Made by a program: the position numbers and the translations under genes | In this document: in pieces, positions 6,296 through 32,153 of the stretch | Numbering within the stretch: position 1 is the first letter of the stretch | Layout: every line of letters begins with the position of its first letter | Source of the DNA: Punctularia strigosozonata HHB-11173 SS5 | Taxonomy: Eukaryota > Basidiomycota > Agaricomycetes > Corticiales > Punctulariaceae | Direction: 5' to 3' | DNA length: 33,260 bases | Assembly: GCF_000264995.1 (NCBI RefSeq) | Contig: NW_006767446.1 | Coordinates: 636,479 to 669,738 of the forward strand | Notes under the pieces: generated by a model | Database searches by the model: none | The model's input: the letters and a program-made list of their open reading frames with translations, nothing else | What the model was told of the DNA's origin: nothing

Positions 6296-6309
6296 CTGAG
6301 AAAAATCCC

Positions 6310-9350: not shown

Positions 9351-9361
9351 GGTTTTTTCAG

Positions 9362-9945: not shown

Positions 9946-10379
9946 GTGTGTGCAAATGAAGCATGAGTGGATGCCATGTGTTACGATGATGTCGAAGTAC
10001 GCTGGAACTCATGAAAATAAATCGTGTTCTGCACTTCGACAAGACCCTACGGTAGGTCTCTGTGGTGTGCCGAGCAAGCCGTGTGAGTTCGCCGAGTCGT
10101 GCCGCAATTTGAAATTGCAAGTTTGGCCAGCCGCTCTATCGTGTTGTGCTCCTGGTTTCCGCATCAAAAAAAGGAAGGCATATGAATCTCTCATAATCAA
10201 GAAGCATTACTCTATTTGGCATCATCCCCTAACCGGTGGGACTTGATAGAATTAAGCCTCACGTCACGCCCAGGAGCTACAACGCAATACGAGCAGTGGT
10301 TTAGGAGCCTGACTAGCAGCTAGGGTACAGCAAGTAGTAGCTTCAGCATATTATTGACTCGACACTAGCCATCTGAGAC
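9946..10379. other. Intergenic, no gene recognised
   Basis: This lies between the helicase remnant (minus) and the gag-like gene (plus). Short ORFs on both strands have no recognisable family features. It may contain the lost 5' end of the helicase gene and the promoter of the next gene. Confidence 0.4.
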
Positions 10380-11797
10380 ATGCCTCCGTGGGCCCCGCGG
10401 GACAACCCCTTTAACAAGCCCCACTATCGGCTCAACCGGGCAGCGCTGGTCGAACTGGTGGAAGCCCTCGGCGTCGACCCTGGAGGGAACGTCCACGACC
10501 TCAAGGCACGGACGAAGCAGGCCTTGCTCGATTGCAAGGATGAACTCATCGATCACCCGTCTTTCACAGCCCTTTACACGGACAGGGAGAACAACGAACA
10601 CCTCCAAGGTCGCGTCCAGGACACAGAAGACGAGGACTCAGAACGGCAAGGCTTAGCCGAGACCCAAGAGCAAAGCCTCCCGTCCGTGTCCACACGCTCT
10701 CACTCGCGGACACCTAGCCAACGTACGAACTCGCAAAGGCTGCAGACATGCTCGGAGAGCAGAGGGAGAGAATCACTTCGCTCGGCGCGGGCACGGGCAG
10801 AGACACAACCGCTCCCTCCCCCGACATCATCAGGTGAGCAATACACCTCACTGAGTCCTTCAACATGCCTCCTTCCTTGCTTTCCCGGCCTTCTTACCAG
10901 ATGTAAATTACCACCTTGCTCGTGTTCTTGCTACACACCTCCACATCCTTGCTACAGCTCGAGCCATACATTCTTGCTAGCCCCTTCCTCGGCACACCTG
11001 CTACCGGTCCAGCGGACTCACAGAAAATCCCAGGGCATCAGAGCACCAACCACGAATTCGGGTCAGAGTCGCCCAGCCCAGAGCCGGATGAGCTGGAAGA
11101 CTCTGGCGACCAACCCTGCCCAGGGCGTGGGGCCGCACGACACCCACGTCTTTCGTCCACGGCACCCAGGGCGGCACCCCGTCAACAGGCTCGTCACGTC
11201 AACGAGTTCCCGACCGTGCACGCCTCTCCGATCCCATTATCATCGCGAGGCCGGCCGGCACGTGTCGCCGGGGTCGTAGCAGACGTCAACTACTACGTCA
11301 TTCCTCAACAAATATGTGACATTTTCGAGAGGGGCCACAGGAGGCACGTACCTCTTCATCACCTCATGGACGCTGCCTGCATGGCCCAAGGCATCAACAC
11401 GAACGCGAACCTGGCAAATCTGTGGCAGATCGAATCCGGGGGCCTAGTCCCAGTTCAGCAGCCGCTCTCGCCGGAAGGTGAGATGCAACTTTCGTTCGCC
11501 GAGTGGCTCCAAGCGTGGCAACGCTACCTCCAGTTGTTTGAGGAGTATCTCCCTCACGAATACCTGGACTGGTTCACCCATCACGAGAACATTCGCCTGC
11601 GCCGCGGCGTCAGCAGCGAGAACGTCTGGCCTGTCTGGCTCGCATATGACATCGAGATTCGCAGACGCTGGCTCAATACCCCCATCGATCCACGCAAGCA
11701 TCATTGCGCGATCTGGGATGATCTCTATATCGCTCACCTCGGGAGGAGAGTACTCCAGCCGCACAGCCCTGGCACTTGCTTATGTACAAAAAACTGA
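10380..11797 (+). CDS. SAP-like / gag-like retroelement protein, 3'-truncated
   Basis: ATG at 10380 opens a SAP-like helix pair (LVELVEALGVDPGGNVHDLKAR, about residues 20-41), a DNA-binding fold, followed by a Ser/Pro/Arg-rich linker. An intron of about 179 nt (10834-11012) joins in phase to a second exon ending at 11797, giving about 412 codons. The second exon contains FAEWLQAWQRYLQLFEEYLP, then VWPVWLAYDIEIRRRW and HHCAIWDDLYIAHL. This W-rich helical pattern is common in gag-like proteins of basidiomycete retroelements. No zinc knuckle, reverse transcriptase or integrase follows. The last few codons and the TGA come from the inverted repeat starting near 11775, so the original gene was probably cut there. 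The intron choice is mine and less sure than the exon content. Confidence 0.5.
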
Positions 11798-11830
11798 TAA
11801 TTTTCAGTGTGCCATGTGGAGAAAATCATG
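11775..11830 (+). repeat. Left terminal inverted repeat of KDZ element
   Basis: CTTGCTTATGTACA is followed by A-rich spacer, CTGATAAT, TGTGCCATGTGG and AATCATG. The reverse complement of 31056-31112 shows the same blocks in the same order (CTTGCCAGTGTACA, CTGATAAT, TGTGTCATGTGT, AATCATG). Over the inner 37 nt, 29 positions match by eye. Confidence 0.6.
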
Positions 11831-12110
11831 ATAAATGCACAGCCCCTGATCCTGTACAGGCAGTCTGTGAGACAGGTAGATGGTCTGTACATGCCGGTCT
11901 GCGGTCTGTACAGCGACTGTGTACACAAGAAGTGTTCGACAGATTTTCACCGCGTGTACAGCGACTATGTACACAAGAAGTGTTCGACAGATTTTCACCG
12001 CGTGTACAGCAACTGTGTACACAAGAAGTGTTCGACAGATTTTCACCATGTGTACGGAAACTGTGTACATAAGGAGTGTTCGACAGATTTTCATTACACG
12101 ACACTGTACA
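11782..12110. repeat. TGTACA-rich subterminal array with 48-bp tandem units
   Basis: About four tandem units of 48 bp (about 11907-12098) each carry TGTACA near the start and again about 14 nt later, then AAGWRGTGTTCGACAGATTT. With the units before and after, about eleven TGTACA palindromes occur within ~330 bp. Because 48 is a multiple of three, all frames stay open across the array and give spurious repeat peptides on both strands. A matching TGTACA cluster lies at the other end of the element. Confidence 0.8.
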
Positions 12111-12349
12111 CAGGAGACATTGACAAATGTTCATGGGCTGCCTGGTACACGAAATGTAGTCTGTACCACACAACCGCCTTCTCCTCCCGGTCACGTGCAC
12201 AACTTCATTGGTCTTATGTTACACAGGGCGACTACGCATATCTTACGGTACATGAACTAGTCATAATCACAAAAAACTACGGTGTCCCATCCGAGCACGC
12301 AAAGAGCGTACATAGGGGCGGCGTGGATGAAAACATGCCGCACCCGGCA

Positions 12350-13300
12350 AGGTGGCATCGACGAACGGGTCGACGATGAAAGGTCTTGAGAGAGAGAGAA
12401 GCATTGATGCCAGCAACGGTCCGGGGACGGTGGCGAGGAGCACATCCGCGACGAGTATCTTGAAGGACGGTTTTGTAGTCAGGACTTGGCTGGAGGCCGC
12501 GTCGACAAATGCGGGCAATGTCCACCACAAAGGCCGCGTCGACGAACATGTCAACAGGAAGGCCATGTCGACGAACAAGTCCACGCAACGGTCTTGAGGA
12601 GGGGTGCGGGTGCGGGCCGCTGCGATGACCAGACTCGGCGTCGATGACGAAGGTCTTGAGAAGGATGGGTGTCCACCCTGTCCCTCGCGATGGGAGGAGA
12701 TCACGTCGTTGTGTGCGCCGACACAAGGGTCTTGAGGAAGGATGCGGGTCCGAACCACCGCGATGACCGGACTGGCATCGACGGAGGTCTCCCAAGAATG
12801 ACGTGAGTTGTGCGCCGCGCGATGACGATGCACGATATCGACGGAGTCTGGAAAGTAAGCTGGGCATCCGGCTCCTTGCAATGGTCAGAGGCGAAGTCGA
12901 TGAACACGTCGATGCGATGGCGTTGAGGAAGAGTATGAGTCCGGGTCCGGGCGATCGCAATGACCAGACCCAGTGCCGACGGCGAAGGTCTCGTGAGAAG
13001 GACGGGCATCCACCCTGCCCCTCGCGATGAGAGGAGGTCGCGTTGTCGCGTCCGCGAACGCAAGAGTCTTGAGGAAGGATGCAGGTCCGTACCACCACTA
13101 CGAGCTGACCAGCGTCGAAAGCAAAGGTCCTGATAGAAGGATAAGCATCCGCCTCGCGATGCGGAGGTGCCCACACAGAGGCCATGAAAGAAAGTTAGAG
13201 ATCCGTCCCATTGCGAGAGGCAGAAGCGATGTCGACGTATTCGTTGACGCAACGGTCGAGGGAAAATGCGAATGCGACCCGGCACGATGACCACACGTGG
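12350..13300. repeat. Degenerate GC-rich repeats (~338-bp direct repeat)
   Basis: About 12669-12772 and 13007-13113 are roughly 80% alike: TCCACCCTGYCCCTCGCGATG, then GTCTTGAGGAAGGATGC and GTCCGWACCACC. Looser copies of the GTCTTGAGGAAGGATG motif occur near 12370, 12450, 12590 and 12650. The minus strand is open for about 300 codons at 12277-13185, but its peptide simply repeats the same motif. I see no protein family, so I list it as a repeat. Confidence 0.6.
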
Positions 13301-14639
13301 CGTGCACAGCTTCGAGCAAACACCTCCAAAGCGGAAGGGCATCTGCGGTAACGACTTCGGAACTCGTCATTGCAATCCCAAGCAATACTGCAAACAGACG
13401 TCGTCAATCATGCCGCTCGGGCCCACATCTCGGCCGCAAACCAGAGCTCTACAGAGACATGTCAATCACGCCGAAATACAGCAGGAAGACCAGACCTACC
13501 AAGTAGATATGCATCACTTCACAGGTGATCAAAAGACTTATATGGTAGGTCGACGTGCCAACAAAAATGCACTTCATGAACACACAACCCCCCGCTATGA
13601 AGGGGGGGCCACCCTCACACATCACAGAAGCCACCGCATGCCGTGACGAACTTCAAGCATTGAACTTGCATAATCATTGCAGAGCGACGGGTACGGCATA
13701 GACTAATATCCGACAGACAATCGACCATCGCGGGAGGCGAACAGGTTTTCAACAGAGGGAGCGGGAACGCGTAAGCGGAGGAACCTAGACAAGCCAACAG
13801 TGAGCAATACACATTCCGTACACGAAGAAAGAGACGCACCTTCCAACCACCCAGCCTCAATCACTCGAGGCCCACAGAAGTCGCCCTCCGCGGGTAAGGG
13901 ATACCCGAGTTCGAGCGGCGTCCAACGCTCGCAACACCACTACGGCAGACCAACAGACCATTCATCATCGATGAAACGACGTGAACATGAGACGGCCTAG
14001 GCGCAGCGGTAGATCAATCGTCAGAAGGGCAACATGGAAGTAACGCGCGCACCATAGACAATTGAAGATCGACGCTCCACAGCGCCAAGGTGTCGCCCAA
14101 TGGAAGATATATCATTGCCCGCTCCGACGACACCAGCGTTCATGTTGGGCGACCACGGAATGGACAAACAAATCGAGGAGCCGCTGCGTGGACAGAGAGC
14201 CCCCTCACGCCGGAGGGGGATGATCGTGGTTCAGGACAAGGAGCGGTAAGCGAGGGCGCATCGTAATATAGGCATCCTGATTGATATCACGTGATCTTAG
14301 CAACCGTACGACTAAGGCCGTTTTATTTGATTGGCCACTTGGATGATACGGCGGATGCCGAAGCGCACGTGCACATACGGAGAAACGCGGGAGCGTGGAC
14401 TTGCGCCAAAACTTATCTCTGATCGATACTTGGGATTAGACGGGTTGACATTACCCATATGAGGGGATGGTTTAAGATACAGAAGATGTATGTACGTCTT
14501 AGATATATCATAAAGGCATTCACATAAACGTGGTAAAAACGAAAGCATCTCAGTAAACGTTGCGTAGCAAAAGCCTGTATCAAGAGGTAATTAACGATAA
14601 CTTGCAGCTGTTGAAGCTACTTGCAGATAGCATGTGAGG
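13301..14639. other. No recognisable gene
   Basis: ORFs here are short and lack family features or convincing exon chains. A CACGTG palindrome (ATCACGTGAT) is at about 14286. I see nothing else to annotate. Confidence 0.4.
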
Positions 14640-15240
14640 GATGCGGGTGGCGAGTCTGATAACGCAAGAGCGGCGGCACGTTGAGGCGGCGGCGGCGGCG
14701 GGTAGAGTATATGACAGCAACGGCATTACGGAAGCGGCGAGTTAAATAAGGTCAAAGCGGCGGCGGCGGCAGCGTGTTGAGTATACGACAGCGGCGGAAT
14801 GGCGCAGGCCTTGACGGCGGCGAGTTAAATAATGCGAAAGCGGCGGCACGTTAAAGGTGGCGGCAGCGGCAGTATTGCGGAGGCCTCGACGGCGGGGAGT
14901 TTGATAACACGAAAGCGGCGGCGGCGGCGGCGGCGGTGGCGGTGGCGGCGTGTAGAGTATGCGACAGCGACGGCATTACGGAAGGCTCGACGGCAGCGAG
15001 TTAAATAGGGCCAAAGCGGCGGCGGCGGCGGCGGCAGCGTGTTGAGTATATGACAGCAGCGGAATGGCGCAGGCCTTGACGGCGGCGAGTTAAATAATGC
15101 GAAAGCGGCGGCACGTTAAAGGCGGCGGCGGCGGTATTACGGAGGCCTCGACGGCGGGGAATATGATAACGCGAAAGTGGCGGCACGTCGAAGGCGGAGG
15201 CGGAGGCGGCGGCGGCGGCGGCGGCGGCGGCGGAATATAC
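14640..15240. repeat. GGC trinucleotide satellite block, ~264-bp higher-order unit
   Basis: Interrupted (GGC)n tracts, up to about 11 units near 15195-15232, alternate with fixed spacers such as GAGTTAAATAATGCGAAAG, GTATTACGGAGGCCTCGACGG and GAGTATATGACAGC. The spacer order repeats: the first of these occurs at about 14823 and 15087, giving a period near 264 bp, over about 2.2 copies. Poly-Pro or poly-Arg ORFs across it are artefacts. It lies just past the 3' end of the 956-codon gene. Confidence 0.85.
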
Positions 15241-15378
15241 GATAGCAATGGAAGTGGTTGATCATGCAGTGGTGGCAGTTGTCGTGTCGATAGGTGTCGA
15301 CGATTGAAATGTTCATGGTAGCGATAAGTATTTCGTGGTCGTGTTCGTTCGTAGCGGAATCTACAATATCCAAGGCAC

Positions 15379-18300
15379 CTAGCGAGACCTATCATGATGA
15401 TGAGCTCTTGATGTCTAAGGCGGACATGGATGAAGAGTCACTCACCTCGTCTTCGCCCCCTTCTTCGCTTTGTTCACCGACGTTGAAGCGCTCGCGGCGA
15501 CTTTGGTACTGAGTTGTATGCAGGTTAGGACACTGTCGGAAATGGGCAAGGCAATAGATCAATTACTCACCGCGATGAACGGCGAGGAGCCGCGGCTCGT
15601 TTTGCCTTCTTCTTGGGCGGCGCATCGACTTCCTCAGAGTCGTTGTCGTCTTGTTCGTTGTCAGCTGCATCGTCGTCCAGCGGGAGGCTGTCCAACGCCG
15701 GATCGTTCATCCGACTTTGAAGGTGTGGATCAAGCAAAACGGCGGTCATGGCCTTGAGTGACCATTCCATGTCACCCGCAATTTCTTCGAGCGTCGCGAA
15801 CTGTTCATCCGTTTTGGCATTGAAAAAGCCCCATTTAAGCGTCATGATGAGGAGGTAGAATCCATTCTTTGCGTTGCAAGGAAGACTGCCCCAATAGATT
15901 TTCCCCTCTGTCCGTGCGAACGGCATCGATTCCCCCCTCCACTTCGGGTTCAGGAATTTATACCATCCGACGAAGTTGACGAGGAAATCAGGCATCTCGT
16001 CGATGACGGGTATACGGTCCACCCCGCGCTTATTGTTTTGCCACCACCCGACGGCGCGAGGACGCAGCTTGTAGGTCGGATAGTTGCGCTGCACAAATAA
16101 GTATGGTCAGTTCACGCATGAAGCATCCCCTATACAACATACCATATCACGCTCGCCGCCGGCGAATCCTTCGGCGATTTCGTATGCTTCAAAGGCCGGG
16201 ATAAGCGTCTCATAACACGTAGTCCGTCGCCAGCTTGTCGGAAGTCGGAGATGAGCAATGGCGGTCTTCAACCAGTTCGGAGCGTCTGAACATGACTCAA
16301 TTGTCTTCGGTCGGGAGGCAGCGACGAGGGCCAAGTATGCCATTTGCCTGGGTGGGTACTCCGGGATTGACGACATTGACGCGTTTGCCGCGGCAGCACG
16401 TGAAGGACATGGCGTGCGGTCGCTTTCGGCGCGCGGAGTAGAGTCCTTTTGCATGGTATGAGAGTCGCGGTTGGGAGAGATTAAGGCGGGGTCTGGGGTG
16501 GGGGCGAAGTGAGCCCACATCTCATCGTCATCGTTGCTTTGCGGAGTGTCGAATGTGACAGGAGGCAAGCGGGCGCGAGACACAAGCACAGCGGGAGCGG
16601 TGGCAGGAGGGGGTCGTGAAGGCGATGAGTCCGGTTGCCCCCCCTCGAGCAAGCCATCGGCCGCTGGTCTTCGCGGAATCCTGGGAACAGCGTAAGACAC
16701 GCCGGCGAAGCTGTCATCGTCTTCCTCGTCGGTGTCATCAACCACACGGCGGGACTTCTTGATCGGACGTGGTTTGGGCCTCATTCGTTGAGACGGTGCG
16801 GTTGGTGTAGTCATCCCCGCAAGCAATGGTAACCCGGGTATTGGCACCGATGAAGACGTGGTTTCTGACACTGTCGAAGGTGTTGTCGAGCCGGTAATAG
16901 AGCTTACAAGCGACGCCGACCTGGACGCGCGAGGGGCAGTGTCGGAGGTGAATGCCGATGCCGACATGGTCGCGGATGTAGTCGCTGATGTAGAGGTAGA
17001 CGAGGATGTGGTCGTAGCGTTAGATATTGACCTTTGAATTGCCTTGTCAACGCCGTCGCCGTGCGGAGTACGCGGTCCAGGAGTGGTTGTTGTGGAGGGC
17101 GTATTGAATTTCGTCGCTGGAATTTTGACCAACTCGTTCGCGTATGCGGGTGCTTTTGCCTTACGCTTGCGTTTCGGCTTCGGTGTCTTCTGCTTGGCGA
17201 CGGATCCAGTGTCCGACGTCTCGGTGGAAGCGGTGATCTGACGTGGGGAATCGCCTTGCTGGTTCGCGGCGCTCATCGAGGCGATCAACTCCTGAGCGTC
17301 CTTCTCGTTGTTTACCCTCCGGAGAGATATTTTGGCACGATCTTCTAGTGCTGTACAACACACCAGTCAGCCAAGGGTAGAATTCAACGGGATGTAACAC
17401 TTACAGTAATGGAGGTCTAGATACTGCGCAAACAGAACGAAGACACTGCCTTGATAATCAGGGACAAACTCCTCGAAACTTCGCCCATCGGGCAACCTGC
17501 CGTCCGACCACCTGCTGCCTGTCAATACGGAGAAAAGATGCCGGCGGCAACGGACTTACGCAACGATGGTGAAAGCACCGTCCTGCCCTGGGGTAGGGCC
17601 TCCAAGTATCCGGAATGATATAAAGCCGGATGCTTCGTTCACCGCTTTGGCCTCAAGCTGGATAAGCTCCGGTAGACGTTTGATGGCCCTGAACAAAATG
17701 CCGTTAAGGTTTAACGACGATGGCGATCGGTTCATGTTACTCACTCATCGTAACGAAGGGCTCTATCGAGATCGCTCTCGTTACCCGGATTCGCGAGCTC
17801 CATCGCGTACCCCTGTTTGGCCTTGTGACGATAATCCTCAACCGCTTGCTTGACCTCAGGCGACTCCTTCTCGAGGCGTTCCGTGAGCCACCGTGCGTAG
17901 TCGTTAACCGGTATATCCTTGCCCTTGCCCTTGCCTTTGGCCTTCGACGCGCTCTCGGCTTCGTTCTAACCCTGACCCTCGCGCGTTCCTTGGCCCTCGC
18001 CCTCTCCTGCTGCGAGTTCTTGAGCAGCGATGAAGCTCGCGAAATCCGCTTTGACTTGCGGATACAGGTCAGCGTACGCGAAACACGCCTTCTGGAGATT
18101 CTTCGGCTTGGAAGCTTTGAGCTTGTCGAAGCCCGTAGCCGCCGATGATCCGCCGTCGTTGCGGCACTTGTTCAGGAGCCACTGGTGAATTTGCTGTTGA
18201 AGAACTAAGTACCTCATTCACCGCAAGACGTGGACACGTTCACTCACAACCTGACGCCTTACGCGCCGATCATTGAAGCTTTGCAGTTCGGAGGCCGCTG

Positions 18301-18634
18301 CGGTGTCCTCGCCGACGGCTGCGAGCTCCTTCGGTGTGAAACGGATAGCCTCCGGAAACCTCTCCCAGTAGGCGTCCCATGTCCTCTTCATGAAGTGGGG
18401 GATGCTATTCGGGCTCTTCTTGCCTGCCCTGCGAGCCGCTAGGAACCCAGATTTCCGCGCGTCGAGAAATTCCCTGTCTTCTGCAGAGGTCCAACGTGAA
18501 CCAGGCTTGTACTCTGGCATGTCGTCAATGATGAAGCCATTGTGCTCATAAACATCCAAGACGAGACTAGCAAGGTTGGTGGACGTGGCGAGCTTGGTGA
18601 GGTCGGTGGATTCAGAGTCCGAGGCCGTGGACAT
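15379..18634 (-). CDS. Uncharacterised basidiomycete multi-domain protein, ~956 codons, one in-frame TAG
   Basis: Eight exons on the minus strand join in consistent phase: 18634-18248, 18193-17745, 17688-17560, about 17511-17405, 17350-16143, 16088-15571, 15508-15446 and 15388-15379. Seven introns of about 48-62 nt have GT..AG ends. The N-terminus has RWTSAEDREFLDARKSGFLA and HFMKRTWDAYWERFP, a Myb-like or TE-associated helical pattern, then VRRQVQIHQWLLNK. Next is a WSDGRLPDGRSFEEFVPDYQ block. Exon 5 is a long Ser/Thr/Pro-rich region with basic clusters (KPKRKRKAK). The C-terminal block is LRPRAVGWWQNNKRG with FVGWYKFLNPKWRG, then an acidic tail and KKKAKR. A family with this GWW block recurs in mushroom genomes, but I know of no assigned function. 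TAG at 17966-17968 (codon ~205) interrupts exon 2 although the frame continues, so the copy may be a pseudogene or the stop a single mutation. Confidence 0.75.
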
Positions 18635-18806
18635 CACAACCAAGGAGATGGGAATGTTCGCTGTAAACCCGTGGTTGGGAGAAACGACGGACTCAAGGCG
18701 AGCTGGCAGAGGCACGTGATACGTATCCACGCGTGGCGCAGTCTCCCCAGTCCAACCTCGTGTATCCACTCCTCCAAGTCTTCATTCCAGCTACCACCGC
18801 ACTATC
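18635..18806. promoter_or_regulatory. 172-bp divergent promoter region
   Basis: This short spacer separates the ATG of the 956-codon gene (minus) from the ATG of the 239-aa gene (plus). It presumably holds both promoters. A GGCACGTGATACG stretch near 18711 contains a CACGTG E-box. No TATA box is evident. Co-regulation of the two genes is inference. Confidence 0.45.
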
Positions 18807-19672
18807 ATGTCGCAATTGAACCAGAGAGGGGGCAGATCGGTACGTTCGGCTCACATATCTGCTATCTCCGATCTCTCATAGCACTTTTGCAGCCGTCCGC
18901 TCGAACAGTGAGCGACCCGGCAACAGTGTTAGGCACGGTAATGGAGGCTATCCTTCGTGGTAAGTGCTCCTTGTGTTTGTATAAGCTAAGCTGACCTCTC
19001 CTCAGCTCATGGTGTCGTTCTTGACGCTAGCAACATCACCCGCGGACCCTGTGCATGCATGTGTCACGGTGCATGCAATGGGCCCCCATCCCCGACCGCA
19101 CAGGGTGGCGCATCGTCGAGTCCACCCACATACGTCGAAAATCCCCCGGCTCAAGCATCTCGGAAGCGGGGCAATAGACCGGGACGAACCCCGGATTCAA
19201 ATTCGAGCGGTGGCCGCACCGCGCGAAGAAACAATTCCACGATAGCTTCTGGTTCTGTATTTGGTTCACCTCCACGACACGTCTGTCCCGCTTGTATCCA
19301 ACTGATAGCTGAGCAACATCGCTATCACACGAATATGGTGGAAGCCGAGCTATGGGAGCAACCTACGGGACCCGACACCGAGCATGGCACTATCCACGCA
19401 TTCGGGATGCGAGGCGAGCATTACCACTGGCCAGCAAACGGCGCCCAGGGCCCGTTCTACGTGGTAACTGCCGGCTCGGCTGTCGGTATATTCACAAATC
19501 GGTACGTTACTTTGTTTTGCGAAGATCCAGCTACTTACGCCATTCCAGTTCATTGGTGACGACTATCACTAGTTTTACTGTGTCATACCATTCCGTTCAC
19601 TATGATTTCAAAGAGGCTTACGACGTTTGGCACGCCGCCTTGGCTGGGAGCACCGTTACGGTCATATACTAG
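18807..19672 (+). CDS. RNase H1 N-terminal-like (viroplasmin-like) domain protein, 239 aa
   Basis: Four exons are 18807-18839, 18893-18959, 19006-19501 and 19549-19672. Introns of 53, 46 and 47 nt join in phase, and the stop TAG is at 19670-19672. The protein has a small N-terminal helix (VLGTVMEAILRAHGVVLDAS), then a Cys-rich CACMCHGACNGPP stretch. A basic Ser/Pro-rich linker and a CPACIQL pair follow. The C-terminal domain reads FYVVTAGSAVGIFTNR, then HYDFKEAYDVWHAALAG. This matches the pattern of the RNase H1 N-terminal hybrid-binding fold (YVV.G..GI....., then F....EA...W), which in other proteins binds RNA-DNA hybrids or dsRNA. There is no RNase H catalytic domain. The gene is intact, divergent from the 956-codon gene and convergent with a second gene of the same domain type. 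Confidence 0.75.
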
Positions 19673-19848
19673 ATCGCGGACCAACATTTTCGCGACGTCA
19701 TATTGTCACACTACCTGCATACGTGTCACCGTGTACCAAACACTCCTCTTACTGTTCACCACCATACTCATATGCAGGATAAGCCTGAATTCATGGAGCC
19801 AACACGCGTAATATATGCTACGAGCCGTATGATATTGACATGAACATC

Positions 19849-21685
19849 TTAACGAGGTACAACTAAGACCTCCCGTGCCTCCAGAGCGCGCAAAAACGCA
19901 TCTCGCGCCTGAGCGAAGGTCCGATATCCCTTAAAGCTATTATTTGGACAACCGAGAACTTGGTGCGACGTGTCGGGCCTGATTCATGAAATCAGATGGA
20001 GTGGATTACGCAATACAGATGTATGAAGCTTACCAATCCCTCCAGATGCCCACATTGTAGCCGATCCTAACCGCGAAGTACTTTCCAGGACCATTTTGTT
20101 CGTCTGGTGGGGGTATGTGAAACTCGGTCACCTCAGGATACATGGAAGACAGAGTACGAGGAGTAGGGGCATCATCACGCGGAGCAGGGGGCACGGACAA
20201 CCGAGTATCGATCCTCGATGGAGTGTCAGCTGAGGAAGGAGCACTCGAGGATGTCGATACGTCAACAGAGGACAGGCCACATGCCGACAATGGTGCAGAT
20301 GATGGCGGCGGCAGCTCGTAGACGGAGTACGCTGGGGGAGGCGATTGGGGGGGCCGTTCTCGAGGAACAGGCGCGGCATTGAACACGTTCGAACGCTGCG
20401 GCGAATACCACCGTCCACGCATGGGGGTCCGAGGTCGATCTGGGAATGGGCCGGTTCGATTGGTAGAGGCGCCAGGATCCGTCGAAGGGACGGTGGGCCG
20501 GGGTGTCAAGTTCCAACCACGGGAATACGAATGAGACGACAGGCTATGGGGTGTATGGGTGTGGGCGGCATTGTTGATAATAGATGGCTGCCTCGCTGAG
20601 GCTGGGGTCGGAAGTCGCTCGTCAGGCGGTCTAACACCAAGCCGTCCGGCGCCGGCAACAAGCAGAGAATCGGCGGGAGGACCTGGGGACCCAGGAGGAG
20701 AAATGAGGGGAGGTGACGTAGTACCAGGCGAATCGCTTGGCTCGCGGCTTGTGGGTGACAAAACAGCATCGCCAGACGCCAACTCCATAAGACTGCGGGC
20801 ATCAGGGTCGTTTGCGTCCCATTCCCAGGACGGATGGATTTCGACGTGAGGTGGGAGCTGGTGTTGGGCGGGAGGATGCAACTGGGTGTGGATTGGATAA
20901 ATGGGGCCCTCGCTGCGCGGTGTCGACGAACGAGGTGTCTCCTCGCGACGAAACTTGGATTGGCGTCGGCCATGGGCGAATTCCCGACCTTGGCTGCAAG
21001 CAGTAGAGCTTGGGCGCTCGCCTCGGTATGCGGCGAAGGACATATCAGCACTGGAGGCCCCGTCGCTGGAGGATGTACGAACAGAGCCGTAGGTGGAACA
21101 AATCCCACGTCCCAACGGGGCGGAGGCGGCCAGATCCATCCTTCGATTGGTCCTAGAAGTACCTCTACCGCGGTGTACCGTGGCCACTAGAGATCCGCCA
21201 ACCTGTGGGCGCGGTGCTTGGGTGGCAGCGATGGTGGCCTCTGTCGATGCGCGACCGGCCACCGACAGATTGTGTAAAGCGGACGTCTCAGCAGGGGAGG
21301 GCGGGTAGTAAAGATCATCATCGGAATCGTACACCGGATTGCACGCGTTTTCTACGAGCGCGGCTAGTTTTTATATTCAGCAATGCGGTGCACAAAGAAC
21401 AATGAAAATATTCACTTTCAGCGAGTCCTACGATGACAGACTCCACGTCGAGATTCGGATTCTGGCCTTCACAGTGGTGAGTATGACAATCCATCGGATA
21501 CCAGAGCAATACGTACTATCCTCCAGAAATTCGAGCAGAGAGCCCACGTTGTGCACGCAATTTGTGCGTAGAGCCTCTAGGAGCTCTTGACGATCGCCTG
21601 GGCGGAGGTCGGCATACTGCTTCGCAGTCAATGGTGGTGTAACGGAATCAGCTCTGGAACTTACCCGCTTCTTCCTGTTCGTCAT
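19849..21685 (-). CDS. Pro/Ser-rich protein with C-terminal RNase H1 N-terminal-like domain, 559 aa
   Basis: Four exons on the minus strand are 21685-21517, 21466-21416, 21363-20034 and 19978-19849. Introns of 50, 52 and 55 nt keep phase, and TAA is at 19849-19851. The N-terminus (about residues 1-80) is MTNRKKRVSSRAD, then YADLRPGDRQELLEALRTNC and an acidic DSDDDLYYPPSP. A long disordered Pro/Ser/Arg-rich middle of about 400 residues follows. The C-terminal ~60 residues read KYFAVRIGYNVGIWRDW, then LGCPNNSFKGYRTFAQARDA. This is a good match to the RNase H1 N-terminal / viroplasmin fold (V..G...GI...W......V.G.....FK.F....A). No nuclease domain is present. The gene faces the 239-aa gene tail to tail, 176 bp apart. 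An RNA-DNA-hybrid-related role is inferred only from the fold. Confidence 0.8.
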
Positions 21686-23224
21686 GCGGGAGGGCTGGTG
21701 GACGACGACAACTGCAGAGAGCTTGGGGAACAACGGGATTAAAGAGAAGAAATGTGAGACCGGTGATCGGAAAAGAAGTATCCGGGTCCCCGTGAAAGAA
21801 GCATGTCACGACGATGTGAAGACAATGTGAAGGACAAGGTGAAGGATGCGTGATGGAAGGGCAGCGGCCTTCTTCATCATATCCGACCTGTTCCGGTGAC
21901 ATACAAAACGAACCCATCCCGCCACGCGTGCGCAATGCAAGCGTCCAATTGACGTTGTAGCTCAGAATCAGGTCCTTCGAAAGGTACGCCCGCGATCGAT
22001 CAACACAAGGCCTCAGCGCCGTAGTGTACTGACACAGCAGTCTCATTGCCGTCGAGTGTGCATGGCCGAGGAGGAAAACTGACCGAGTTGGATGGCGAGG
22101 CCCATATTTCACAGCACAAGAACTCAGACGGTAGTGAAACGTTTGTGGATGGGCAGAGGGTATTCCGCCCATGTTGTGGCTTCTATAGTAACTATCAGCT
22201 GAGACAACTTGGCTCATTGATCATACGTACTTGCGCCGCGGATAAGGAGAAGAAATGCGGCTTTCATGAATCCTCGTGTCTAGAAGCGCCCCAGTGATGT
22301 CGACGCCGCAACTTTGGATCGAAGTCAGGTCGCCGACTTTGCGACTATCCGCTCGACCACCGCGCCCAGTCGCGCGAAGCGAGCCGTGAGTCGGGGCATA
22401 CTGTATTAGGCATGCTGCCTTGATGCCGCATTCAACGTCCGAGTGTCGGAGTGCCATAATATTAGACTCCGAATCCACTGCCCTTCGGCATATCACGTGT
22501 TTTGCGACTAGCCGCATGATCCGCGACTTGGGACGTGACATGCGGCTACTTGGACATCACTGAAGCGCCCAGACGTCCCCCCTACTGTTGTGTCTAGGTG
22601 ATGTCGTCTGAGCTGGTCAGCGATCCCGTAGTCAGATTGACTTGCTTGTACCAACTTGAGAATGCTCGCCCCCATGTTCGCTGTCCGGCCATGGGTTGAC
22701 CATTCAGTGACTGCGAATATTGGACAGTCTGGAACGAGTTGCCAGCGGCGACGATTCCACGTAGACAGAGACGCAAATTTGGCGGAGGAGCTCATCAAAT
22801 GTCGCAAGTGGGAAGGTATGATGCAGGGTTGTCCGTGGATGGACCGATGTTTTCTGACGTTTCTAGACTGCAAGTAAACTCCCACGGTCAGAAACAGGCT
22901 TCTCCACGGATATTCGTAAACAACCCTGGGATGATCGGTTCTGTGCTCATCCTTTGTGATCGCAACCATGCCCCAAAGCGTCTCAAGATGGGGCAATGTG
23001 AGAAGTGGTATAGGTCATAGTCAGAATAAGATAACATGGATAATCGTACAGTATGAAATAATGATACGGTGTAAAACGAGATTACATATGAGGAAGTCCC
23101 CGCCTTGGTCCAGGATTTGCGCGAAGAAAGGCTGAGCGCACCTACATAAAGACGAAAACAAGTTGAGATGGGCAAACGACAGAAGGTCGGTAGACGTACA
23201 AACCAAGAGCCCGGATGAAGCTAG
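21686..23224. other. 1.5-kb gap without a supported gene
   Basis: Minus-strand ORFs of 189 and 162 codons (21648-22217, 22508-22996) lack recognisable motifs and do not join into a convincing chain. A weak tRNA-like stretch on the minus strand (about 22295-22366) has an A-box-like TGGTCGAGCGG and a TTCGATCC element but does not fold properly. Otherwise I see nothing. Confidence 0.4.
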
Positions 23225-23700
23225 TTAGGCAGTAACTCGAGTTCTTCTCCCCTTTTGCCCATGATCACACAGAGTCTGAAATTGGCGAGTGATAAGACCC
23301 CGGAGATAGGCGTTCAACAAGTCAAGGCAGGCCTCCCAAGCCATGAGACCAATTTGGTCAGGGTCAGCACATCTCTGGCAACACGCCGTGATCGCGCCTT
23401 GCTGGTTACGTCGTAGTGGGCGAAGATCATGTCGATTTTCTTCTTTTCGGCCTCCTTGTGAGGGAGGTTGGTTATAATATCCGAAACGGGCTGTTCACAG
23501 AATGGGAGACGGTCTAGAAAGTGAAGCGACCTCGTCGCACTTGGTGCTGCTGGAATTGTCCCAGCCGCGCAATGGAGTTCCCATAATCTCCTGAACGTAC
23601 GAGCAACATCGATTGCAGCGGAATAGGGCTTACGATGTATGAGCAGTGAGGGGTAGAAGACAAGGGATGTGTTACATCCATCCATTGCTGGAGGAGACAT
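23225..23700 (-). CDS. Small two-exon protein, unknown function, 146 aa
   Basis: ATG at 23700 begins MSPPAMDGCNTSLVFYPSLL. Exon 1 (23700-23410) includes AAIDVARTFRRLWELHCAAG and NLPHKEAEKKKIDMIFAHYD. A 35-nt GT..AG intron (23375-23409) joins in phase 0 to exon 2, with DQIGLMAWEACLDLLNAYLR and a basic end GQKGRRTRVTA, stop at 23225-23227. Without the intron the frame closes shortly after. The protein is mostly helical and amphipathic. I do not recognise a family. It lies within the KDZ element between the RNase H1-domain genes and the transposase. Confidence 0.5.
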
Positions 23701-25414
23701 GCATTCCTCGCTAACTACTTATAGTGTTTATAACTTTACGGACATCTGGTGAGGCTCATACACCCACAGTGTACATCGTTCACTCGCGGTAACCGACGGC
23801 AATCGGAAATACTCGAAACGCAGGGCATATATATGCGTCCGAAATGTCGGTGGATGTGAGATGTGCCTACGACGACCTACACGATCATCTAGGCCATACT
23901 TACTTATGTGCTCTGTCGTTCCATGTCTACCTGGGTATTAAAGTATCTTCATGAGATTTGTGGTCTTGTCTATTGTTCAAGTTCCTGCGCAGATCGTTGC
24001 TATCGTCGAGGTTCCGGGTTGCGAACTACGCATGAAAGGCAGATCTGGGATTGATCGGTCGTCCGATCGCGGCCACTCACACACTAACACCTCTCAAATC
24101 CGGCAACTCCTTACACACTTCAAACTCATCTCCCAATGAGAAGATTATTATCAACCTTAGGGCACGGCTTGGCCGCTCCGTGCACACCAGCTGTCTGCGT
24201 CATTTTATTAGTCGGAGTTGCTTTGCGTATTCTAAGTCATATCAAACTTAGCAGACGGAAGCATAAAATGCCTTAAGCAGTTGGTATGCCGATCGGCAGC
24301 TGCGGTCTCCACGGCACGTGACAAGCCTCTGGCCCATCCCGCACGACCAAACAACCGCCACAGCGACGACGTTGGCTGACATCTCCGGCCCCTGCAATCA
24401 TATTCATCCTCGCTACCTCGTTACACATGCTCAGACCCCGCCAGAGATGCTGCTGTCATGCACGCTCATCGGTGGCGGTCACCGTCCGAACCACCATATT
24501 GGGTATCGAGACTCCCTTTCAGCAAGCAACCCGCGTGCTTCGAACGTACAGTAAGTCTTTCACCGTATATGCGTAATGAACCGACTTGATGTTACGATAG
24601 GATAATCACTGTCCTGTTTTTGGTCCTCATTCTGCATGATTTTTTCTTTCGATGGGGGTCTCGCGTGTCGCTCTCGGAGCACCTTAAACACGTATGTCCT
24701 GCATCACCCCATGTTATGAGTGCTGCCTATTGACGTATTTCTATCAGCATGCCCCGTACGTGTTAACAATTACATACTTCCGGTTGGTCCTCTTCTCCCA
24801 ATCATACCCGCTATATCTCGACTTCGCTCATAATCTTCCGTTGATGTTGGACAGGCATGACGCACGGGTTTGCTGGGACCATCCATCAAAACACTGGAGT
24901 GAATGATGCGGAACCATTACCGTTCCTCAGCTCGGACGGATGTGCGAGGCCAGGTGTGTTTGTGGTAGTAATGCAAACGGAATCGCTAATGAATCAGCTC
25001 AAATCAGGTATCCAGTTACATCATATTGACAGTGGTTTCCAGCTATATCAACTGGTCGGTGCACTGGCCCGCACGGCTTCTTTTCGACATCAAGCTCACT
25101 TCACCCTGCAGCGTAATCATACCGCCTTCCGACATGAGCAACTTCGTTGCCTCAGTCAATCATTCTAGGAGCTGATTACGCCCCGATGCCTTACGGTGGA
25201 TCCGACCACACCGCAAATTGAAGGAATAGGGCCCTGCCGACCGTGTCACTGTACGTCATTTCTGTTCATGTTTCACATCCAGACAGTAGGCTGCGATACT
25301 CTTCACATTACACGACACTGGCCGTGTTGTTTATCCTATATGTCTTCTCCTGTTGTTGCCGATTCTGACTTCTTTTATCCCCCACTGCTTTACCAGTCAG
25401 TGCTTTGTTTTGCC
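23701..25414. other. Region upstream of transposase, no firm gene
   Basis: Short plus-strand ORFs at 24318-24554 and 24857-25168 look spliceable (for example AG at about 24854 before MTHGFAGTIHQNTGV), but I could not assemble a family-supported gene. The final ~200 bp before 25415 should hold the transposase promoter. Confidence 0.4.
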
Positions 25415-28400
25415 ATGAAGAGGAAGCGCAACGTTCCGACCGTTGACGTCGTTGGCAACAACCTTGTGCGCCAGCTACATGTTGACCGTGATAATCGAGG
25501 ACGCACGACGCTTCGGTCCACTTCGTCAGTTGTAGCGCCTGTGAATATCTCTCTGCGGATGAACGGTGTGCCCCCATCGGAGACTGCGCAGGGTAAGGCA
25601 GGGTCATCCGAGCCAAAACCCACCGCTGCCAAATGCACCCCGGCACCGTCGACGGATAACAAGGCAACTGTCCCGAAGGCTACCAAAACTACCATCGGGG
25701 TATGTTCAGACACCAGTCGTGCCGGATATGATGTGGGATGTTAACTTAGTTCTACGTTAGTCACAAATCGCGACATGGATCCCTCACCGCAACGACTACT
25801 TGGATGCGCTCTTGGCCCATGAGGCACCCGGTCTCAAGCAAAATACGTTGAAATGTCAAACCGTCGTTCACAACGACGATGGGACCACCCGTGCGTGTGG
25901 CACGCCCAGTCCGACCATCAGATGCCGCGATTGCTTCAGCTGCCAGACCATCGAATGCGTCCAATGTTGTCTGCGACGCCATAAAGACTTGCCGTTTCAT
26001 CGTATCGAGGTACGCTGCGTCCAGGTTCCTGGAGTGCAACCTTTGATCCAGATATCAGCAATGGAACGGTCATTATTTCAAGCGTACCAGCCTTCATGGC
26101 TTAGGCTACAAGCTCCACCTCTGTCGTTTCGGTGCGAAATGTTCGAATTCTACGCCCGGCCCCCGGAACTTCGTCGTATTCCATACCAATGGTCACCATC
26201 GCCTGCGCCTCATCTACTGTGGGTGCGGCACACCCGTCAAGTCCGAGCAGCTTCTTCTATTTCGTCTGTTTCCTGCGACAACGGCTGAACCTCGGACGGC
26301 CTTCACGTTCGATTGTCTCAACACTTTTCACCTGCTCAATTTGCAAGGCAAGCTCACGTTGCACGATTACTATCAAGCTATGATTCGAATGACGGACAAC
26401 ATGGAACCTGCGCCTGGCATTGTACGTATTTCGCTAGGCCAAGATACTATACGGCTCATGCTCGCATTACAGTGGAGGTACCATGACGCCATCCTTGCCG
26501 TCCGTGAGTGGCGTCATTTGAAGATGCTCAAACGAGCCGGCAGGGGTAACGATCCGTCAGGAATACGAGGCACACCTGTCGGAGGACTTGCCGTGGAATG
26601 CCCCGCGTGTCCGCATCCCGGTCGCAATCTCCCAGACAACTGGGAGACGGATCTGCGCAGGTCGTACCTATCAGTTGTTACACAGCGCAAGTACTTATTA
26701 CTACATCAGATGGTTGTATACCCAGTTCATCGGGGTGGACGCTTGCTTTAAGCTGAAATTGAGGGATCGTGGCTTCCAAGACCCGGCTTTAGGCGATGGC
26801 TTGGCATATTTTGTTTCCGATGTGCAATATAAACACCACCTTAAAGAATGTAGTGATGGTGTCGAGGAGGTAAGACACGTCTCTTATGAGGCCAGGACCT
26901 TTGTTTAGCAAACGTACAGGATGTAGAACCCTGCGACGCGCATCATCATGCGGTCAGCCAGATGAACACTAAGAACAACAACAAGAAGGTGCTTGTGACC
27001 GGGCTCGGAGCAGTGGTGTGCGCGCGGCATTCTCTCATGAGGAAGAATGCGGTCGCCGATCTGACTAAAGGCGAGCGGTACGTTCTTCTCGTAACACCTA
27101 TGCACAGTTGTTGACGAAAGGTGCGACAGACAAGTCACGATGGACTACATCTTCTGGTCTACGCTGGCAGACTCGAATATATCGATGGTGGTAGCGTCGT
27201 ACGATATCGCTTGCTCCTGGTCTATTCACTTGATGGATCGACTACGACGAAATTACGCAGACAAACTGGTTCAGAAGTTCTCCAGGATTGGGTTCATCTT
27301 CATGGTGCCGAAGGTACATCTTCCCAGTCATGGAAAGAAATGCCGACGGTTATACGACTTTCAACACCAGCCGCATGTCGGTCGCACACACGGAGAAACT
27401 ATAGAGCAGCAGTGGGCTCATCTAGGCGGGGTGGCGACCAGTACCGTCGAGATGGCTCCGGAAGGTCGGCGTTCTGCCCTCGAGGATCACATGGGTAATT
27501 GGAACCACGTCATGAAGATCAATATGGGTACGGCTACCAGTTCTCATGATAGACGCATTCACTGAGGCTTCTGATGGGGTAGGCAAAAATATGTTTTGGT
27601 CACTGACAGAAGCCCTGAACCAAAGCGTCAAGCATCGTCAACTTTACGAGGATTTGTCAAGCACCTTCGATGAAGGCACCATCCAGAGGTGGACGGGCCT
27701 CATCCACGCGTTTGAACGGGACAAAAAGGCAGGGAAGGATCCATATGCCGAACCCGAGCAATGTATGTGCTGTCGATGTCCTCGCTGATTCATTGGTGGA
27801 GGTTGACGTCCGTTTCACAGCGCAGACATATGATCAGATCCGGAAACGACTCGAAGACGAGGAGAAGGCGACTGAAAAAGATTCAGAATCGGATGGCTCA
27901 ACGTTGCAACATGATTTCTCACCATCGGAGTACGTTCAGCGCGCTCTAAAGCTCCTCGATAGACAGTATGTCACCCCCACGGCCCCATCATTCGAGTACA
28001 GTGAGCTAAGTTCCATTCAGGCGCGCCATGACACGCGACATAGCGACACAGCAAGCAGAGCACCATTGCACCACGGCCGATTTGCAACGGAAGCGTGAGG
28101 TGTTCCGAAGCGATGTCAGGAGTCTCACAAAGGTTGCCGTCCTATTCATGCCGTGCCTTGCTCTGGCTTCGGAGGATGAAGAGGTTTTGCCATCTACATC
28201 TAGAAGTATCGTCCATCTTCCATCCTCCCTGGTCGCCGCGGGCCTTCCGCTGTCGGGCTGCGTGTCGGGTATTGTTCGCGCCGAAGAACAGATGCGTACT
28301 GCGGAGGCGGCGGACGCCCTCGAAGCTCTCTGTAGAATGAGACGCTCGTATATGGGGCTGATCCACAAGTACAAGGTTAATGTCTTCGGTTCAACGTCCG

Positions 28401-29167
28401 CCAATACTCGTTCCCGGGCCGTTCTCAAGGGCGTGGGTCGCAAAATACATCTCTTGGCCCTGAAGTATCGCGATGCACGTTTGGCGCTTGTGGCTCTCAA
28501 CCCGAAGGGCTCGTGGCGCGATTTCCTACTCGAGCTTCGAGATGACGACATCCGCGGCCCTTATCCAGAGGAGGACGAAAGAGAAGGGCGTCGCGAAGAC
28601 TCCTGGATATGGCGATCACGAGGACGTCTAGTACGTCAGGTGCTGAAGCTTGATGGGTCTGTGGATGGCATGCGGCTCAGCGCCGAGGAGGAACTGGACG
28701 AGACCATGCTGTATATGTGGGCAGCTGCGCGCGCCCGCTTTCTCCGATGGCAGGAGGAAGTGCACCTCCTGGTCGAGGAGATGCGGCGGATCATCGCATT
28801 CCTTCATTGGCAGGCCGACTCATGGCTGTCCAAGCGTGGCTCTCGTCATGGAGTGGTCATCTCGTTCGCTGCCGATTGCTACGCTTCCAGACAGGCTGAT
28901 CAATGCCGTGCGCTCGCCGCCAGTTTCGTGCAGCGATGGGCACCACTACTGAAGAGGACGGGTCATGGAGAACCGTGGATCCACGAATATGTTTCGTCTT
29001 TGGAGAACACCTCACTTGAGGACAGGGACGAGGAGGCGGTTGATGAGGAACTGGTAGACGCAGAGGACGAGAATGAGGATGGGGACCAAGATGAGGACCA
29101 GGATGTGGGCCGCAAGAACGCTGTTTTGGACGCTACTGACTATTCCGTATATCTAACAACCGACTAG
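25415..29167 (+). CDS. KDZ-family transposase with CxC2 zinc cluster, ~1,100 aa
   Basis: Ten exons join in consistent phase: 25415-25699, 25761-26009, 26059-26421, 26473-26660, 26710-26869, 26920-27077, 27130-27527, 27553-27762, 27821-27965 and 28021-29167. The basic N-terminus (MKRKRNVP) is disordered. Exon 2 holds the CxC2 cluster: IRCRDCFSCQTIECVQCCLR then HKDLPFHRIE. The KDZ core follows: LGYKLHLCRFG, VVFHTNGHHRLRLIYCGCG, AFTFDCLNTFHLLNLQGKL and VREWRHLKMLKRAGRG with ECPACPHPGRNLP. Next come RWLYTQFIGVDACFKLK, VVCARHS (~res. 446-452), MVVASYDIACSW (~487-498), VPKVHLPSHGKKC (~527) and VGRTHGETIEQQW (~551). The C-terminal helical part has EALCRMRRSYMGLIHKYKVN, LRDDDIRGPYPEED and an acidic end. 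KDZ proteins are RNase H-fold DNA transposases, nuclear and cut-and-paste. All introns are 49-61 nt except one apparent 25-nt gap (27528-27552), which may instead be a frameshift. Confidence 0.95.
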
Positions 29168-30019
29168 AATGAGTATGGCGTAGCATTTCGCAATATGTAG
29201 CGAATGTGATTGATCGTTCAGTATCAATATACAGTCACGTGCGACGTGTGATATATATGTATGAGCGTGATGCCACGTATTTCTTGTCCTGAACCACGAC
29301 TTGCATCTGCTTTTAACTCGACTAACGGTGTCCGTTCCTCGTATGTGGATGGTGTTTGTGCAATAATGGATGTCCATGAGAGAATTCCTCGGTGCGTCCA
29401 GAGGTATCTCGTGTGTTGGGGGCTGCGCTAACTATTTCCCATCTGCTCAGTCGTCCGGCGATTCACGAGATGACGCTAGCCTCATCCAGTTTCAGCGGGC
29501 GCGGTTGCTATGTTCATGTGGTTGATTCGGTTATGCCACATCATGCAGTCGTGCTGGACGTTTGTCCGTGAAGTCGATTGGGCATCAATGTCCTACTCAA
29601 CAAACGCTCGTCATCAACGCAGCGCACATACTCAGTTATTCGTGCCTCGGACGCCGTACGGGGCTTGGAGTCGTGGCTGACGTAGCACCCAGGACTCGAG
29701 ACCACCGGTGTGTTCTTCATTGTTCGAAGTGCCTGCCCGATCTCATCAGGCTTGTTCGTTCTTCAGTCTTTGCAATAGGCTGTGAACCCCTCCCAATCAA
29801 TCATACTTCTCAGGTGTTCTGGTGAGCCATGACGATGTTCATTCCACTCCCTCGTACTAATCGTACACTCTTAGGTTGCTTGCCTGCATGATGCTATTCG
29901 CCATCGTCTGGCCATCTTTGACGACGCAACCCTTTCGCCGCTTTCTCAATGATGTTGCTATCGACAAGACCGCCCACCATCGTCAAGCCCCAACCATCCC
30001 TCGGGATGCAACCATTCCA
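29168..30019. other. 3' flank of transposase, no gene seen
   Basis: I see only short ORFs without family features. The transposase terminator should lie just after 29167 in AT-rich sequence (29160-29290). Confidence 0.4.
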
Positions 30020-30520
30020 CCATCAGGTCGTCGACGAATGGCCCTCGCCTAGACCATCCAGGACGTTGGTCCTCACCCAGGTGTAGCCTCCACGCCCCCG
30101 AGTTGTCGACTTGCGGGCACCTTGCCTCATACGATGTTCTATGGCATGACCCTTTCTATTCCGCATCATCAATGGAATCCTCGCCTGCTGCGAATACGCA
30201 GCATCGGTTGTCTCCGACAATTCCGAGGATAGTGCCACTTGCTCGGTTAATCCAAGGCATGTCGTCGACGTCACCACCGTCCACCGTTTTCAAGCCCCAC
30301 CTATCCTCTATTATCTCTTGACGCGGACGTGCCATCATCATGTCCTCCTCGCCCAGACCGTCCAGTATGTCGGGCCCTACTTCGGTGTCGCCTCCACGCT
30401 TCCGAGTACTCGGCTTGCGGGTACCTCGCTTTACACGATGTCCATGGCATGGCATTCTATGATTGCGTCATCGACGGAGCCGTCGCTGAGGATATCCGGC
30501 ATAGGCCATATCTACAGGAT
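30020..30520 (-). repeat. Tandem duplication, ~304-bp period, possibly coding on minus
   Basis: About 30030-30200 recurs at about 30335-30510; AGACC(A/G)TCCAG sits at 30051 and 30355. On the minus strand both copies read HRxxxGxRKxxTRxRGGxTxVxxxxLDGLGE, and the segment between reads DDMPWINRASGTILGIVGDN. This conserved minus-strand peptide suggests exons of a modular gene, as seen at 3442-4750. I could not place a start, stop or introns. A weaker third copy of the start of the unit appears near 30555. Confidence 0.5.
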
Positions 30521-30799
30521 ACGGGCACTTCGTCACTTTGCTAGCGGCCTGTCTCCGTCGCCCAGATTGTCGATCGTGGTCTCAACGTCTTGTTGCACAC
30601 CCCCGCTTGGCTTCGCCATGGTTAGTGTTATGTTCTCGCACCTGTCGTCAGCAAGTCGCTGATATGTCTCTAATGCAGTCTGATCATTCCCAGCTTTTCA
30701 GTTCGCCGTGCTGTAGTTATTGCGCGGTAACTTTCCTTGCCGCCCAACACTTCATCCATGTCCGCTGCCTCATGTACGGTGGACTGATTGCTGCTGGAT

Positions 30800-31112
30800 A
30801 TGCATGTACATAATGTTCCTCATACTCATCGGCGCAGTGTACGTTTGGGAACTAATTGTACAGGCTGGTGTCAAAAGTTATGTGGCCCGCGGTGTACAGG
30901 ATCGGCTGCAGATATTGCTCCCACCGTCTGCACATGCAACAATATACCAGTACTCGCTTCGGGTGTGTGTGTGCAGATATGTCTGTACAGGACGTACATG
31001 TACACGGACCAGTGCTGATAGCAGTAACATACAGCCGTGAAGTATGTGTTATTTGCATGATTATAGACACATGACACATTGATTATTATCAGCTCGGCTG
31101 TACACTGGCAAG
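30800..31112. repeat. TGTACA-rich right subterminal array of KDZ element
   Basis: TGTACA occurs at about 30804, 30857, 30894, 30983, 30999 and 31099, often as CTGTACAG or ATGTACA. It mirrors the cluster at 11782-12110 and is far above the one-in-4,096 chance rate. The site is palindromic, so orientation does not matter. Transposase binding is inferred. Confidence 0.7.
31056..31112 (-). repeat. Right terminal inverted repeat of KDZ element
   Basis: Read on the minus strand from 31112, the order is CTTGCCAGTGTACA, CTGATAAT, CAATGTGTCATGTGT and AATCATG, matching the left end at 11775-11830 with about three quarters identity by eye. Similarity fades outside this span. Confidence 0.6.
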
Positions 31113-31814
31113 GCCCAGCATTGTTGCAACACAAATCTACACAAAGCTACGGTATGATAACACTATAAGACACATTCGATCCAATGCGGGGACTTCAAAA
31201 CGACAGTTGAAGTCCATGCCGCGCCTTTCATATTCTCAATTGGAGAACTGAGCTAACTCAGTAACTTTCTGTGCTTCTTCTGTCGCATATATCCTGGTAG
31301 ATGCACTACGATATTGCTACAGCTCGATGATAATGTACAATGATCTTAGATTACTGTCATACGGTTTAAATCACACCGTTTACTTCAATACATAACAGAC
31401 TCGAACTCACGTTCAGAACACGAGTTTGAGTGCATCGTACATAATAATCCTGCACGACACAACTACGGATTATGCGCAGGTCAGCAGGGTAAGGATGCCG
31501 ACAGTAGACTCGTTCGAGTTCGGGGTTTGCTGGATGGACTGGCTGCCAATGGCGCGCAAGCACACTGTCCTGTGGATGCTTGCCCTGAAATCTGCTTTAG
31601 TGAATCTTCCTACCTGTGACTGCTTGTGTTATCACTTCGGGGTATGCATTGCGTGTACTCTATCGCGCTTGAAAGCCAACGTTCTCAAGAGACATTGACT
31701 ACTTGAATTTTGGAGCCGCTTTGGGATTGTTCCGCAACTTATCTAGATCCCACGCCTGCGAATACTTGAAACGTTGCTCTCAGCCACCTAATCTCAGCTG
31801 TCCTCTTTGCCGTC
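31113..31814. other. Intergenic, no gene seen
   Basis: AT-rich sequence with short ORFs only. It lies between the inferred right end of the KDZ element and the next exon-like ORF. Confidence 0.4.
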
Positions 31815-32153
31815 ATGGCTCGTTGTTCCACCGTTACTGGCTCCAGTCGAAAGCGAACACGGACTGAACTCCCTCGAATCAAGTCAGTCAATGACAAAGC
31901 GCATCACGTGATGCAGACTCATAGGGCGATCACTCTCCGGGTCAACGTGGGCGGTCGTCTCAGAGGGACCGAACGCAATACGCATGCGACTCGTTTGCTC
32001 TCTCCGGACCTCGAAAATGAGCACCAATTGATGGATATGGATGGTCTGTATGGTGATACCGCTGGAACCGAGCTGCCGCCACCTAATAAGAGAACGGGTC
32101 GGCGTAAGACGAAGAATGCCAACAAGACACTTGGTGTACGTCTGCAATGGTAG
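31815..32153 (+). pseudogene. Orphan N-terminal exon, cut by right inverted arm
   Basis: ATG at 31815 opens a basic, disordered peptide (MARCSTVTGSSRKRTRTELP) with HRAITLRVNVGGRL, LLSPDLENEHQLMDMDGLYG and NKRTGRRKTKNANKTLG. A good donor (GTGTACGT at about 32133) follows that last motif, and an AG acceptor lies near 32189. Only about 25 nt later the right inverted arm begins and no family domain follows. The composition resembles N-terminal exons of KDZ-type transposases of basidiomycetes, so this could be the stub of a second transposase gene. That assignment is tentative. Reading through the donor gives a stop at 32153. Confidence 0.4.

Follow-up and report, generated by a model that had tools for sequence, protein, structure and literature searches.

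The window analysed here is a 33,260-nucleotide stretch of the Punctularia strigosozonata HHB-11173 SS5 genome (contig C14, positions 636479-669738), which contains a 19,360-bp element with CA..TG tips at 11764..31123. The element encodes a KDZ transposase and three companion proteins, which we refer to as G1, G2, and G3, and is very probably a single KDZ-type DNA transposon together with its gene set. Genome searches covered 33.57 Mb on 32 contigs and identified two relatives with the same tips and the same genes, on contigs C3 and C5.

All gene structures are simple in-house splice models, and the G1 model is homology-guided. The transposase gene (25340..29167, + strand; 10 exons, 1115 aa in the model) lies near one end of the element, as a preliminary description of this DNA had it. 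It encodes the KDZ core (PF18758, E 3.7e-53; 180.9 bits against a cut-off of 26.6) and a CxC2 cysteine cluster (PF18803, E 2.7e-32). A CxC2-KDZ transposase, together with the short introns, would fit a basidiomycete. G1 (15442..18634, - strand) is a function-unassigned protein of about 930 residues (929 aa in the model) and corresponds to the gene described earlier as having 956 codons; its model requires a GC-donor intron near 17966-18040, without which a stop is read. G1-like proteins are presumably common, unnamed proteins of mushroom genomes. A 146-aa gene was also listed in the preliminary description, and this one is not supported: the sole listed 146-aa frame in the element (17708-18148, + strand) runs antisense to G1, with 329 of its 441 nt over G1 exons. 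A dense GCG-rich minisatellite (14680-15240) lies directly past the 3' end of G1.

G2 (18935..19672, + strand) has conserved cysteine motifs and encodes about 230 aa in the C5 relative; the start of its first exon was not located in the window. The C-terminal end of G3 (19849..21685, - strand; 531 aa in the model) is formed by an RNase H1 N-terminal (hybrid-binding) domain (PF01693, E 1.7e-9), and so is that of the C5 G3. Of the two RNase H1-domain genes previously described, G3 is thus borne out, whereas the Pfam scan of G2 gave no informative match, and G2 possesses only a short motif resembling the RNase H1 N-terminal domain, with no Pfam match to it. The Pfam matches of the transposase and G3 emerged after the exons were joined, ten single frames having given no match. 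A six-frame genome search with PF01693 missed G3 in all three elements at E <= 0.001; the domain is interrupted by an intron. Compared with solved structures, the G1 and G2 profiles returned nothing credible (best E 0.54 and 0.2), and the G3 domain returned weak RNase H1 matches (E 0.029-0.054).

The element opens with CAGCCCTGG at 11764 and closes with CCAGCATTG at 31123, where the opposite strand opens with CAATGCTGG. We set its limits at 11764-31123 because a genomic repeat on the left stops at 11763, the tips align ungapped, and the two relatives are flanked by duplications at the same tips. Tip alignment delimits a left tip with inverted terminal repeat (11764..11830, + strand) and a right one (31056..31123, - strand). 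Positions 11769-11830 align to the reverse complement of 31056-31118 with a local score of 52 (maximum of 2000 shuffles, 34), and a score of at least 50 was reached by 2 of 259,500 control window pairs from the same two regions, both of which are the repeat itself. These shuffles and control pairs rule out a chance terminal repeat. The inverted repeats reported earlier at 11775-11830 and 31056-31112 are therefore real, with both ends placed 11 bp short.

All eight ends of four elements (the window copy, the C3 and C5 relatives, and a short derivative on C18) can be aligned. Left and right ends agree at 17 of the first 25 bases in the window copy, C3, and C5 and at 18 in C18. When the comparison is extended to 70 bp, the window copy shows a strong inverted repeat (score 52 against a shuffle maximum of 31) and C3 a borderline one (33 against 32), and the scores of C5 (26 against 28) and C18 (24 against 28) do not exceed those of their shuffles. 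Both ends of the window element also carry the TGTACA clusters already recognised in the preliminary description. The left subterminal array (11783..12110) has 11 sites and the right (30805..31104) has six, compared with maxima of 3 and 4, respectively, in 500 shuffles of 600 bp; the 18.2-kb interior has two. The left 600 bp of C3 and C5 contain 10 and 11 sites and the right 600 bp contain five and six, and between the end arrays the density in all three elements is 0.07-0.09 per 600 bp. The first two sites, at element positions 20 and 90, are common to the three.

Searching the genome with the transposase identified two close loci. The C3 relative (C3:1074418-1095888; 21,471 bp) and the C5 relative (C5:1894119-1914855; 20,737 bp, of which 889 are N) have the same tips as the window element and are flanked by perfect 7-bp duplications, GGCGTCT and TTTTGTT, respectively. 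In translated comparison, G1, G2, G3, and the KDZ/CxC2 transposase have identical order and orientation in all three elements. No gene common to the three copies was seen in the region at about 21.7-25.3 kb, the C5 counterpart of which is partly N. Because C3 and C5 have the same ends and the same genes, the block moves as one. The interval was thus rightly taken for one element, once its ends are corrected, and the check proposed at the outset called for common ends, a short duplication of the target, and an unchanged order of the cargo genes, all three of which are seen in C3 and C5, the window copy lacking the duplication. The C3 transposase is modelled as two gene pieces, and we make no claim that it is intact. 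A tip pattern built from the six tips of these elements has eight matches in the whole genome, namely the six source tips, an additional left tip on C18, and a lone match on C2; the same pattern read backwards as a control has three. The C18 derivative (C18:386832-389392; 2,561 bp) possesses both tips and TGTACA sites at both ends, and has no match to the modelled proteins.

The three long elements have diverged. G1 of C3 is 45% identical to that of the window and 54% identical to that of C5. In the C-terminal exon of G1, the main exon of G2, and the transposase (partial model in C3), dN is 0.16-0.50 and pS 0.66-0.82 (dS 1.6 to saturated); the test covered these three regions and used well-aligned codons only, which lowers dN. 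The nearest pair by dN is C3-C5 in all three regions, for G2 barely so (0.247 vs 0.248 and 0.304). By these values, G1, G2, and the transposase are under selective constraint of the same order, and the three elements are old, separate lineages and not recent duplicates, despite the two perfect duplications. Such divergence combined with perfect duplications would fit low-copy elements that are long-lived or were acquired horizontally and that have moved recently.

The companion genes are concentrated in these elements. At E <= 0.001, a threshold at which counts are lower bounds, G1 has at least 18 matches, 17 of them within the three elements and one at C17:31035, adjoining a KDZ gene. All six listed G2 matches lie within the three elements, as do six of the nine listed matches of the G3 C-terminal piece; two of the others fall in an array on C6 and one adjoins a KDZ gene at C5:868k. 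The C6 array (C6:2020033-2025873) comprises six matches to RNase H1 N-terminal domains and is a possible source of the G3 domain. At the C17 locus, the order is G1 (-), a gene with a hybrid-binding motif (+), and KDZ (+), and the transposase is 33-39% identical to that of C5. The preliminary description regarded the genes as cargo; they do lie inside the element, yet their distribution, the C17 locus, and the constraint make G1-G3 look like long-standing parts of it and not casual cargo.

KDZ genes have at least 48 matches in this genome, which we grouped into 29 loci. Eleven of these have no match in the window-transposase search, in which 41 of 73 candidates were scored. Ten high-scoring KDZ loci (e.g., C7:1260110 and C9:224721) are among the unmatched and probably constitute a second KDZ group.

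The element carries both marks of the KDZ superfamily, the PF18758 transposase core and the associated cysteine cluster, here CxC2. By tips and duplication length, and not by a tree, it would be placed in a Kyakuja-type subgroup: CA..TG tips are found in all four elements, and the 7-bp duplication is perfect at C3 and C5 and absent at the window copy and C18. In the accessible portion of Kojima 2025 (PMC12730594), the TET+ Kyakuja of Agaricomycotina are described with 5'-CA..TG-3' tips, 7-bp duplications, and a TET/JBP gene. They resemble the window element in having a KDZ transposase, these tips, this duplication length, and an additional internal gene, and differ from it in that the elements studied here, which measure about 20 kb, carry G1-G3 instead of TET/JBP and have degenerate inverted tips and TGTACA arrays. 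A TET/JBP dioxygenase gene within the element was ruled out, as Pfam scans of the modelled proteins yielded no match of this kind; Tet_JBP has four listed matches in the genome, none inside these elements. Zisupton and Dileera share the KDZ superfamily with the window element and make 8-bp duplications (as cited in the accessible text of PMC12730594), whereas the shared run at C3 and C5 is 7 bp.

According to the available part of PMC12810828, Cryptococcus KDZ1, KDZ2, and KDZ3 measure about 11, 9.2, and 10 kb, have terminal inverted repeats (TIRs) of 241, 139, and 169 bp, and generate 8-bp (KDZ1) or 4-8-bp duplications. They belong to the same superfamily and their movement has been shown in the laboratory, but they differ in size, TIRs, and duplication length, have CxC1 instead of the CxC2 found here, and are described there with no G1-G3-like module. 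Marasmius oreades likewise has abundant mushroom KDZ elements with characterised TIR motifs, again with no G1-G3-like module in the accessible text (PMC8290104). Within the portions available of the Kyakuja/KDZ literature, including PMC12730594, PMC12810828, PMC8290104, PMC12062965, and PMC7473861, we found no description of the G1-G3 module; the founding paper, Iyer et al. 2014, lies outside this coverage and may mention related proteins.

Several observations weigh against reading the interval as a Kyakuja-type transposon together with its gene set. The comparison is confined to one genome. Kyakuja elements are reported without TIRs (Kyakuja-1_LB and -2_LB in the accessible text of PMC12730594), whereas degenerate inverted tips are present here and the window copy has an inverted repeat, which past the first 25 bp is clear in that copy only. 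The C18 derivative has no 7-bp duplication, so that the duplication is kept in two of the four elements. At C17, the hybrid-binding gene is on the strand of G2 and not G3, one match to G1 out of two is weak, at E 0.11, and tips of the window-element family were not recognised in a region where 7,471 of 19,000 bases are N. Finally, a target duplication is lacking at the window copy (AGCCGCA vs TTGCAAC). The left flank (10312..11763, + strand) is a copy, at 92%, of a repeat with an open frame of unknown kind; two other copies of this repeat can be aligned with each other over roughly 3.4 kb. In all seven other copies found, the repeat continues past the position equivalent to 11763, and only in the window copy does it end there, severed at the insertion point. 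The second half of the repeat was searched for in the right flank (31124-33260) and not found, and it is absent as a detached piece among 10 genome matches.

Because the target duplication is absent and the second half of the repeat is missing, the right junction is probably rearranged, and the simplest reading is that the right side later underwent a deletion or recombination. Whether the window copy is a chimera, with halves or flanks from different insertions recombined, or lost its right junction after insertion, is a matter on which we hold the odds to be even: the severed repeat and the missing duplication speak for such a history, but the left and right tips are more alike in the window copy than in the other elements, as would be expected of one element's own pair. 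In any case, this concerns the history of one copy, not the nature of the family. The missing duplication might also be taken to mean that the inverted repeats are chance or unrelated sequences and that ordinary host genes simply happen to have a KDZ relic close by, an explanation that the shuffles, the control pairs, and above all C3 and C5, with the same tips, perfect duplications, and gene set, already refute and that we regard as extremely improbable. The window also contains a nearly identical inverted pair (884-1931 and 32213-33260; 1,048 bp each, 97% identical) that encloses the element and could in principle bound a larger mobile unit. We dismissed the pair as a unit boundary, and the chance of a larger unit is negligible, since its sequence has nine matches genome-wide, seven of them outside the window and one right where contig C15 begins, the single matches pointing to copies without the element, and since the C3 and C5 units end at 11764/31123-type tips with duplications. 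The sequence adjoining the window reads N. Inside the window, to the left of the element, are helicase pieces (5468-6313 and 9358-9804, - strand; Helicase_C at E 1.1e-11 and DEAD at E 2.2e-5, the latter falling slightly short of its cut-off), which we take to be RecQ-like, and a fragment of an AMP-binding enzyme (7001-7516, - strand; PF00501, E 3.9e-26) within a stretch with 43-nt direct repeats (6618-8516).

On the best reading, the element belongs to the KDZ superfamily as a large cut-and-paste DNA transposon whose ends are of the Kyakuja type. The CxC2-KDZ transposase would recognise the TGTACA arrays near both ends, cleave at the CA/TG tips, and integrate the element through a 7-bp staggered break. 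G1, G2, and G3 ride inside the element and have been kept with the transposase over long divergence; they may be nuclear nucleic-acid-binding factors that assemble the transposition complex or counter silencing, G3 possibly through its RNA:DNA-hybrid-binding domain. We favour, with some reservation, the view that G1-G3 are the element's own accessory factors and not host cargo. They could instead be passengers, host genes captured long ago with no part in movement. None of them is known to act in transposition, and the C6 array shows that RNase H1 N-terminal domains occur away from the elements, where G3 could have acquired its own. Against this, the gene order is kept in three long elements at saturated synonymous change and partly also at the C17 KDZ locus, G1 and G2 have no other genome match at E <= 0.001 except at C17, and their constraint is of the same order as that of the transposase; passengers are thus rather unlikely, at perhaps a minor share of the probability. 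Returning to accessory factors, a more specific proposal is tentative and falls somewhat short of an even chance: an old Kyakuja-type lineage may move with a fixed kit made up of the transposase, G1 as a large nuclear protein, and G2 and G3 as proteins bearing motifs of the hybrid-binding type, a kit that it would need in order to transpose or to evade silencing based on RNA or chromatin.

These results give exact ends for a KDZ element of roughly 20 kb, proven by target duplications in two relatives, and they point to the TGTACA arrays as candidate transposase-binding sites. The companion genes have stayed with the transposase while synonymous sites reached saturation. The TET-carrying Kyakuja delimited in a 2025 publication have a TET/JBP gene as their companion, and G1-G3 would represent a second, unrelated companion module, with which one can test whether accessory proteins are required by large fungal DNA transposons for moving or for escaping silencing. 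If the proposal is true, the fixed kit would amount to a eukaryotic cut-and-paste system of several subunits, one that offers another way than the TET/JBP route.

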